Source: Actinoplanes sp. NBRC 103695
GTDB taxonomy: Bacteria; Actinomycetota; Actinomycetes; Mycobacteriales; Micromonosporaceae
NCBI RefSeq assembly: GCF_030269485.1
Contig: NZ_BSTL01000002.1
Location: 198,341-262,340, forward strand
DNA: 64,000 nt
Direction of reading: 5' to 3'
Both the position numbers and the translations under genes were made by a program. Shown piece by piece: positions 43,671 to 57,218 of the stretch. Position 1 is the first letter of the stretch, and each line of letters begins with the position of its first letter. The notes below the pieces were generated by a model. That model was given only the letters and a program-made list of their open reading frames with translations, was not told where the DNA came from and did no database searches.

Positions 43671-43800
43671 CCGTTTCTGTGCCCGCCCCCTTCCCGGCAG
43701 GCTCCCGCCGTCAACCTGATCACGGGGCCTGTGGCGCGTCCGGCGTGGTGCTCGGGCTGAAGACGCGGCGCGGTGCGGTCACACGGCTTGTGGGGTGATT

Positions 43801-43826
43801 TCGCGGAGCGCGGCCTTGCTCCGCGA
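43801..43826. other. Hairpin upstream of the methyltransferase
   Basis: TCGCGGAGC (43801-43809) and GCTCCGCGA (43818-43826) form a 9-bp stem with an 8-base loop in the 285-base gap before the next gene. Nothing else in the gap is recognisable. Confidence 0.5.
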
Positions 43827-43911
43827 CACTATCCACGATCAGCTGGTGCTCGCACACAATCTGCACAAGCGGCGCGCGATCTCTCCCCACTCCGCTGACA
43901 CCCTCATCGGC

Positions 43912-44733
43912 ATGACCGTCGCTTACCTCGACCACGCCGCCACCACGGAACCTGGCCGCCGCTACAAGCGCTCCCTGCTGGAAGCCCTTGACCTCCGCCC
44001 CGGCCTCACGGTCCTCGACGTCGGCTGCGGCCCCGGCACCGACCTCCCCGGCATGGTCGCCGCGGTCACCCACCCTCCTTCCCGCAGCGGCCGCGCTTCC
44101 GGTCCGGAGGCGCTTTGCTCTGAGCACATATATGCATCACCCTTGTCGGTGGGCAGGGTGATCGGTGTTGATCGTGATCCGGGAATGGCGGACGAGGCGC
44201 GGCGACGTTGTCCCAGCTCGGTGGAGATTCTGGTCGGCGATGCCCATGAGCTGCCACTCGACGATGCGTCGGTGGACCGGGCGCGGGTGGACCGGGTGCT
44301 GCAGCATCTCGCCGACCCGGAGCGTGCGCTGGCCGAGCTTCACCGGGTGGTCCGCCCCGGTGGCACCGTGGTGCTGGCCGACCCCGACTGGGACACCCTG
44401 GCGATCGCCGACCCCGACACGGCGACAAGTCGTGCCTACACGCGCTATGTGACCGGCCACGTCGTCCGCAACGCCACGATCGGCCGTGAACTGGCCCGGC
44501 TCCTGCACGCCGCCGGCTTCGCCGTGGTCGAGGTGGTCGCTGAATCCATCCTCTTCACCGACTACGCCGAGGCTGAGGCGATCCTCCGCATGCCCGATGT
44601 GGCCCGCCGTGGCTGGGAGTCCGGCGCCTTGGACCCGCACGCGAGCCGCGCCTGGCTGTCCCGCCTCGCCGCCGGCCCTTTTGTAGGCGGCTTCACCTTC
44701 TACACCGTGAAGGCGCACCGACCAGCCCCCTGA
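43912..44733 (+). CDS. SAM-dependent methyltransferase with a 26-residue in-frame insertion
   Basis: 273 residues. Motif I is VLDVGCGPGTDLPGMVAAVT and motif II GRVIGVDRDPGMADEARRR, then GDAHELPLDDASVD and a C-terminal half typical of ubiquinone/menaquinone-like methyltransferases. Between the two motifs, where homologues normally have two or three residues, the sequence HPPSRSGRASGPEALCSEHI plus YASPLS is inserted (44071-44148, exactly 78 bases). The inserted DNA carries the dispersed module also found at 56.84 kb. The site lies in the loop before the SAM-ribose-binding acidic residue, so the enzyme could be damaged although the frame is kept. Confidence 0.8.
   Translation: MTVAYLDHAATTEPGRRYKRSLLEALDLRPGLTVLDVGCGPGTDLPGMVAAVTHPPSRSGRASGPEALCSEHIYASPLSVGRVIGVDRDPGMADEARRRCPSSVEILVGDAHELPLDDASVDRARVDRVLQHLADPERALAELHRVVRPGGTVVLADPDWDTLAIADPDTATSRAYTRYVTGHVVRNATIGRELARLLHAAGFAVVEVVAESILFTDYAEAEAILRMPDVARRGWESGALDPHASRAWLSRLAAGPFVGGFTFYTVKAHRPAP
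44112..44142. repeat. Dispersed short repeat, copy A (inside the methyltransferase gene)
   Basis: CTTTGCTCTGAGCACATATA, identical over 21 bases (with a leading G) to 56840-56860, is followed by TGCATCACCCT, shared with copy C at 56921. It is in the in-frame insertion of the methyltransferase. An ATCACCC / GGGTGAT hairpin spans its right edge into the gene (44137-44163). Confidence 0.75.
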
Positions 44734-45098
44734 CGACGCCGCGTTGCGTGTAGGTAGGCGTTGCGTATAGGTAAGCAGAGCAAAACGCACCCCGCCCAAG
44801 AAAGGCGAGGGGCCAGTCAGCTGTGAGCCGAGTGCGCATCGGCCGGAGCGCCGGCAGGGCCAGAGAGTGGGCGTTGCGCGGCCAGTGGCGTTGCGCGGCC
44901 AGTGGCGTTGCGCGGCCAGTGGCGTTGCGCGGCCGGAACACGGCGACGGCCCGCCCGCGGGTGCGGGTGGGCCGTCGGGCGTGATTATCAGCGGGCGACG
45001 TTGTCAGCGGGCGTGATTGTCAGCGGGTGCGCGTTGTGGGCGGGCGACGTTGCTCGCGGCGGGTTGTCAGGGGGCGAAGTTTGCCAGCTGGCGGGCTG
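44734..45098. repeat. Tandem-repeat gap with dispersed repeat copy D
   Basis: Two 17-bp units (GCGTTGCGTGTAGGTAG, 44741-44757, and GCGTTGCGTATAGGTAA, 44758-44774) lead into copy D of the dispersed repeat. D on the minus strand is GCTCTGCTTACCTATACGCA (44781-44762). Four more 17-bp units (GCGTTGCGCGGCCAGTG) follow at 44871-44936, sharing the GCGTTGCG start. From 44983 to 45110, TGTCAGCGGGC-like units recur irregularly. No gene is seen. Confidence 0.75.
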
Positions 45099-56799: not shown

Positions 56800-57218
56800 C
56801 CGCCCACCCTGCCAGAGGCGGCGGCTAGGTCTCGCGGCCGCTTTGCTCTGAGCACATATAGGTATCGCGTCGGCGCCGTAGCGACGGTCCCGGCTCGTTG
56901 AGGCTCTGCTTACCTATACGCATCACCCTCCGGAGCAGCGGGGCCGCGTCGCCCAGATGGGCGGCAGTGGGCCGGCCAAGGCGGGGTCAGGCGGACGCAG
57001 CGAGGTCTGGCGCGGCCGGAGCGCGGCGGCGGGGTCTGGCGGGGCGGGGCGCGGCAGAGCGAGCGTGGCAGAGCGAGCGTGGCAGAGCGAGGCGCGGCAC
57101 AGCGAGCGCGGCACAGCGAGCGCGGCACAGCGAGCGCGGCGCAGCGAGCGGGGCGGTCTGACGGCCCGACGGGTTGGGTGCGGCGTCCGGGCGGCCGGGC
57201 GGCCAGGGGCCTGGTGGG
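56800..57218. repeat. Gap with dispersed repeat copies B and C and a 14-bp minisatellite
   Basis: No gene is seen. Copy B of the dispersed module (CTTTGCTCTGAGCACATATA, 56841-56860) is followed 42 bases later by copy C (GCTCTGCTTACCTATACGCA, 56903-56922, then TCACCCT). From 57049 to 57147 seven copies of a 14-bp unit GCGYGGCASAGCGA lie head to tail with one extra G after the third. The remainder is GC-rich without structure that I could identify. Confidence 0.75.

Follow-up and report, generated by a model that had tools for sequence, protein, structure and literature searches.

A dispersed 30-bp repeat lying in frame within a methyltransferase gene and other unrelated genes of an Actinoplanes genome

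The genome of Actinoplanes sp. NBRC 103695 carries a family of 30-bp repeat units, present in many copies, that lie between genes and also in frame within many unrelated protein-coding genes, and whose relatives in other genomes form palindromes. One of these units sits in a methyltransferase gene of the window, by which we mean the whole 64,000-nucleotide stretch of DNA analyzed here (Table 1). We consider it likely, with a probability of roughly 0.8, that the insert in this gene contains one member of a non-autonomous dispersed repeat family of the REP/MITE type, specific to the lineage, and that the arms of its palindrome have become coding insertions.

Table 1. Positions in the window of the methyltransferase gene, its extra segment, and the copies of the repeat unit
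Feature	Coordinates	Strand	Basis or remark
Class I SAM methyltransferase gene	43912..44733	+	Open frame, Pfam, orthologue matches
75 bp (25 codons) missing from orthologues	44077..44151	+	Orthologue alignment; gap placeable anywhere within about 44068-44151
Repeat unit copy (30-bp unit 44112-44141)	44111..44142	+	Sense; in frame, translated as ALCSEHIYASP
Second unit copy, inverted	44757..44786	-	23 bp past the methyltransferase stop codon
Unit copy, intergenic, first half of a two-unit composite	56840..56868	+	Repeat matches
Unit copy, intergenic, second half of the composite begun at 56840	56903..56927	+	Repeat matches

A repeat unit in the extra segment of a methyltransferase

The whole open frame (43795-44733, 312 aa from the GTG at 43795) is assigned to the class I SAM methyltransferases by the Pfam model Methyltransf_11 (E 6e-21). 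Since the majority of orthologue matches start at residue 40-42 of this frame, the ATG at 43912 is the likely start, a choice made less firm by a single orthologue match, in G001, that begins at residue 19. Between SAM motifs I and II, where GPGTDL..AV is followed by GRVIGVD, the protein carries extra residues that are lacking in all 11 orthologues from the same genus, so the uninterrupted genes that the preliminary description had proposed to look for do exist. Seven aligned orthologues each show a 25-residue gap, and the other four, whose genes are encoded on the opposite strand of their loci and were compared separately, differ by a net 25, 26, 25, and 25 aa. The reading frame stays open across the whole insert. 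What had been described as a 78-base dispersed repeat inserted in frame is thus a real excess of 25 codons with a dispersed repeat in frame inside it, the repetitive part covering only about 32 bp.

That part contains a 21-mer (44112-44132) identical to 56840-56860, as had been noticed earlier, which occurs twice in the window against a mean of 0.00 in shuffles. Genome-wide, the 21-mer has 34 near-copies with up to three mismatches, and its reversed control has none. When 121 bases covering the insert and its surroundings served as a DNA query, good matches elsewhere were confined to about query positions 60-94, that is, up to 44109-44143. The best E value between the insert's unit part and other copies was 6.5e-10, and the 45 bp on its left side (44066-44110) matched other sequence only partially and weakly, never better than E 0.05. 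These results bear on the plainest alternative, that the insert is ordinary variation in the length of a methyltransferase loop and that the 21-mer is shared through coincidence or local slippage. The nonrepetitive 45 bp would fit such an origin, as would the position of the insert in a loop of low confidence: in an AlphaFold2 model built with eight sequences and otherwise confident (mean 86.8), residues 57-76, counted from 43915, have a pLDDT below 50 and lie between a helix (44-52) and a strand (81-86). Against it stand the absence of the insert from every orthologue, the zero copies expected in shuffles, the near-copies, and the matches of the unit elsewhere; the last two refute it, and we give it next to no weight.

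The preliminary description had also pointed out a TCACCC/GGGTGA symmetry at the edges of the insert, which does not mark the ends of an element. The GGGTGA at the right edge belongs to the native codons CGG GTG ATC (R-V-I), which are the same in three orthologues (L038, L042, and L045); TCACCC is frequent in the window (66 found versus 43 expected); and the insert region shows no convincing fold (z -1.83, with 9 of 200 shuffles equally good).

Copies of the unit across the genome

Aligned copies yield a 30-bp consensus that begins with GCTTTGCTCTG, continues with AGCAC, CTTAC, or CGCAC and then NNATA, and ends with CGCATCACC or GGAAGCACC; the conservation of its TTTGCTCTG part is inflated because early search patterns were anchored on TTTGCTCTG. 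No Rfam family matched in six loci carrying the unit. A sequence-only model of the unit has at least 146 matches at E up to 10 in the host genome (10.8 Mb in 180 contigs), and at least 136 with E<0.1, counts that are lower bounds because 150 of 1189 to 1759 first-look candidates were scored per genome. A matrix scan of the window and 66 other stretches of this genome returned 118 hits, every one in a distinct context: 19 genes together contain 28 whole units and 52 intergenic loci another 86, with three at the 3′ ends of genes, and one at the edge of a stretch, the last two groups being left out of the genic and intergenic classes. The genic units bear out the expectation that similar inserts would be found in other proteins of the genome. 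L183, a repeat of the L128 copy, was excluded from this set. Genes were called with a codon-score caller made for the analysis, which cut the methyltransferase at 44221, so this gene was entered by hand (raising the genic units from 27 to 28); the placements in L117, L167, L170, L179, and L182 are weak or terminal.

The copies are unevenly spread among contigs. Contig C4 (462,733 bases, 4.3% of the genome) holds 52 of the at least 146 model matches, an approximately eightfold enrichment (p 2e-33, though units within one array are not independent) distributed over about 22 separate places. On the minus strand of locus L010, at positions 369-480, a tandem array of the 33-bp CGCGCTTCCTCTGAGCACGCGGAAGCCTCACCC, seemingly a diverged relative of the unit, adjoins a normal unit.

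Genes are hit less often than their share of the sequence would predict (19 of 71 loci versus a called coding fraction of 0.856, p 8e-29), and the units within them have a preferred orientation, running antisense to the gene in 16 of the 19 (p 0.004). One-sided tandem intergenic loci show a similar preference, with units against transcription in 21 of 27 and both orientations in three further loci (p 0.006). Because the bias is also present between genes, selection on the encoded peptide alone is insufficient to account for it; possible causes are selection against copies in sense orientation, an entry biased toward one strand, or the direction of replication. In other genomes the two orientations are equally frequent (21 versus 21), as palindromes would give.

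This distribution could also be read as that of a cis-acting or protein-binding motif, whether an operator, an uptake-sequence-like signal, or a terminator-like one, selected at many sites and lying in genes incidentally. Such a motif would explain why 52 of the 71 loci are intergenic and why units run against transcription between genes as well; inverted pairs are present between convergent genes, and the 5′ part GCTTTGCTCTG is nearly fixed, though search patterns were anchored there. It would not readily explain a unit-spacer-unit block copied into three unrelated genes (see below), the presence of the core in only 3 of the 67 genomes of the genus, or the variation of the inner parts (AGCAC, CTTAC, and CGCAC), and we hold it to be unlikely.

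In-frame units in unrelated genes

The unit-bearing genes encode proteins with very different domains: FAD_binding_4, GFO_IDH_MocA, FAA_hydrolase, IclR, F420_ligase, DAO/GCV_T, GT87, CbiX, PPDK_N, zinc dehydrogenase, HisKA_3, and sigma-70. In 6 of the 19 genes the best Pfam match extends across the unit (FAA_hydrolase_N, IclR_C, GCV_T, CbiX, ADH_N, and the methyltransferase), and in the remaining genes the unit lies beside or between domains, L171 being without any Pfam match. Three to four of the six frames are open in the common unit types, and in-gene units other than the window copy are translated as, for example, GDAYMCSEQS, VMRMGKQSKA, and RFALSTYTHH. Their mean codon score is -0.37, compared with +0.20 in the flanks.

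An 81-bp unit-spacer-unit block of identical layout recurs in three unrelated genes, those for the MocA-type protein, the IclR protein, and the histidine kinase, with the translations GDAHMCSEQS-EPERNAS-GDAHMCSEQS, GDACMCSEQS-ERERHAS-RDAHMCSEQR, and GDAPVCSEQS-GPERDAS-DDASVCSEQS. The spacing of direct units is divisible by three in 9 of 9 genic cases, as opposed to 9 of 26 intergenic ones (Fisher p 0.0007). That such spacing is the rule only within genes is evidence of insertion with selection on the reading frame.

Orthologues were compared for 12 of the 14 genes of a joined query, with fumarylacetoacetase compared with a solved structure instead; three of the four methyltransferase orthologues in this comparison are the same genes as among the seven aligned above. 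Net gains were found in the histidine kinase (+28 aa versus 2/2 orthologues), the MocA-type protein (+33 aa, 3/3), the zinc dehydrogenase, which bears three 45-bp units (+43-44 aa, 3/3), the GT87 protein (+11-12 aa, 5/5), the GlcE-like protein (+16-18 aa, 6/6), and the L171 protein (+19-21 aa versus 2/2 relatives at 37-38% identity). Fumarylacetoacetase has gained nine residues over the solved structure. Gains are less clean in CofE (+6-11 aa in 3/3, where two units and a spacer would predict 30), IclR (+15 aa versus 2/2 distant homologues at 32-34% identity, where 27 were predicted), GCV_T (+4 to +11 in five orthologues and -14 versus A. subtropicus), CbiX (+2 aa in 5/5), and the PEP synthase-like protein (+3, +3, +1, and -21 aa). 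In these five the loop seems to have been replaced or to vary by itself, and CbiX and the PEP synthase-like protein look like loop replacements, not clean insertions. The insert-bearing proteins are presumably made and working, and the inserted loops are probably exposed, as the model of the methyltransferase suggests.

In locus L176 (2286-4277), a single open frame encodes a sigma-70 type part and a phage-integrase-like SAM domain, with a unit between the two. We doubt that the unit acted as a joiner of the sigma factor and the integrase-like domain; it need not have done so, because a match in G019 covers both parts in one open frame and spans the two sides without a unit. A later alignment took in just the sigma part of another frame of this locus.

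Palindromic relatives and known mobile repeats

Among the matches listed, the unit core occurs in Micromonospora, Rugosimonospora, Catellatospora, Asanoa, Actinocatenispora, Actinoplanes, and Pseudonocardia, and single matches in unrelated taxa look like chance. With the host genome included, the exact pattern is found, beyond the three genomes of the genus counted above, in 14 of 121 genomes of the family in all (10 of 44 genera). The model has at least 30 matches in A. subtropicus NRRL B-24665 (G012) and at least 32 in Paractinoplanes tereljensis NBRC 105297 (G088), and none at E 0.01 among the best 150 candidates per genome in six other congeners.

Close pairs of units in other genomes, mostly of Micromonosporaceae, are inverted with their ends outward in 47 of 56 cases, all 56 being distinct; inverted pairs of this kind characterize REPINs, yet in the host genome pairs of nearby units are direct in 41 cases and outward inverted in only 8 (8/49). 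Of the outward pairs elsewhere, 44 of 47 span 53-144 bp and three span 248-328 bp, small elements with terminal inverted repeats as in MITEs, and their spans cluster near 55, 70, 78, and 123-129 bp. Each of four palindromes folded, three of them belonging to other genomes and one to the host, forms a strong structure (z -8.7 to -14.5).

Hits in the other genomes were counted as 122, some places twice, and amount to 109 distinct ones. Only five of the 109 lie within genes, three in number, two of which have non-coding-like flanks, so in-gene copies are nearly confined to the host genome. The one with coding-like flanks is a Pseudonocardia carboxylase (L269:3158-6391), which has a degenerate copy of the palindrome in frame within its carboxyl transferase domain. 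A whole palindrome that appeared to lie in frame in an FtsX-type protein of A. subtropicus was rejected, as the frame scores non-coding-like on both sides. Carriage by phages or plasmids was likewise set aside: one 126-base palindrome used as a query had no match, and four pattern matches in viral contigs, three of them one sequence, were all without an inverted partner.

Outward inverted pairs, clustered spans, and a mostly intergenic location are traits of a true REPIN/RAYT system, in which palindromes are copied by a genome-encoded REP-associated Y1 transposase, and intragenic REPs are already described in excerpts of PMC3733652. The enzyme, though, is missing where it would be needed: PF01797 has no match in the host genome, with 5 of 14 control genomes positive, nor in five of six other carriers, G094 having one match. 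Its absence from six of the seven carriers tested mostly refutes mobilization by a RAYT, and the unit consensus has neither GTAG nor CGTC; we regard a REPIN/RAYT system as very unlikely.

Units of the host genome resemble the GTAG/CGTC REPs, which in the same excerpts are 20-40 bp long, occur as singles, dimers, or groups, and are mostly intergenic, with some in ORFs where they encode tens of residues (PMC3733652); they differ in the missing tetranucleotide and in the lack of a RAYT in the genome. A word search of PMC3733652 found no Actinoplanes, Micromonospora, or Salinispora. MITEs of the ERIC and RU types, as portrayed in parts of PMC2759123 and PMC10969869, are also small, with inverted-repeat ends and some intragenic copies with open frames, whereas the main form in the host genome is a single arm, and neither a target duplication nor a parent transposon was identified. 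PARCELs, going by a partial text (PMC2996958), share the property of being palindromic repeat DNA that codes for protein, as tandem 25-residue domains in ORFs without assigned function; here, by comparison, the insertions are in conserved enzymes. The RPEs of Rickettsia, given as about 150 bp in portions of PMC10969869, are also close in kind: they are dispersed palindrome-derived repeats through which unrelated genes, interrupted in frame, come to encode a recurrent peptide. We likewise observe in-frame insertion in a number of conserved genes with no relation to one another (19 genes, 12 of them compared with orthologues, with the exceptions given above). As described, RPEs are set apart by form, the element here being an arm of 30 bp that often stands alone or in direct tandem, is translated in several frames, and occurs in a GC-rich actinomycete.

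The preliminary description had called protein-coding repeats unusual outside Rickettsia, which overstated their rarity. REPs within ORFs of O. terrae, Thauera, X. oryzae, S. maltophilia, and others, and intragenic ERIC elements, are reported in excerpts of PMC3733652 and PMC10969869, respectively, so the phenomenon is already known. We found no account of the 30-bp unit family in the literature searched, and both the family and its occurrence as single arms look new. If our reading holds, selfish repeats that code for protein, familiar chiefly from Rickettsia and some REP-rich bacteria, extend to high-GC actinomycetes, and the roughly nineteen genes with related inserts make a natural set. 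Two questions could then be put to the test: which factor mobilizes REP-like palindromes in genomes where a RAYT has not been found, and with what frequency insertions at random turn into loops that a protein tolerates. For annotation, it is a caution that such loops can derive from repeats.

Under the REP/MITE-type reading, the ancestral element was probably a palindrome, mostly of 53-144 bp, with GCTTTGCTCTG ends facing outward, as in other genomes of the family. Such a hairpin element would be moved in trans by a putative recombinase or transposase, although no mobilizing enzyme was found, and single arms may arise when an unstable hairpin loses one of its two arms. In the host genome the element would have spread chiefly in the form of single 30-bp arms and of composites in direct tandem. 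Many sites would receive copies, those in genes surviving when they fall in a tolerant loop and an open frame, so that the host gene would keep coding and its protein gain roughly 10-45 residues. A bolder version sees a new protein-invading DNA family of Actinobacteria, in which a hairpin moved by something other than a RAYT enters as a single 30-base arm, preferentially opposite to transcription; with a length divisible by three, the arm would repeatedly be domesticated as a ready-made disordered loop. We entertain this version tentatively, as possible at rather long odds.

Because the closest methyltransferase orthologues are just 51-57% identical, an empty site at the DNA level and a target duplication are not readable at this gene; for target duplication the flanks were viewed by eye only, and no close relative offers an unoccupied site for comparison of the DNA. 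The host genome also has five long outward pairs of units, one of which encloses the 3′ part of the window methyltransferase. Such pairs were considered as a possible parent transposon: in three of the five (L119, L129, and the C45 pair in L089) the enclosed genes were read and do not by appearance resemble transposases, their products looking like those of an amidase gene, of unrelated metabolic genes, and of a gene for a Fic-like protein. The fifth pair of the host genome is in L128, and the sole long pair elsewhere is in L274. Downstream of the methyltransferase, at 44868-44935 of the window, GGCCAGTGGCGTTGCGC repeats head to tail, resembling short GC-rich tandem runs at 57060-57150.
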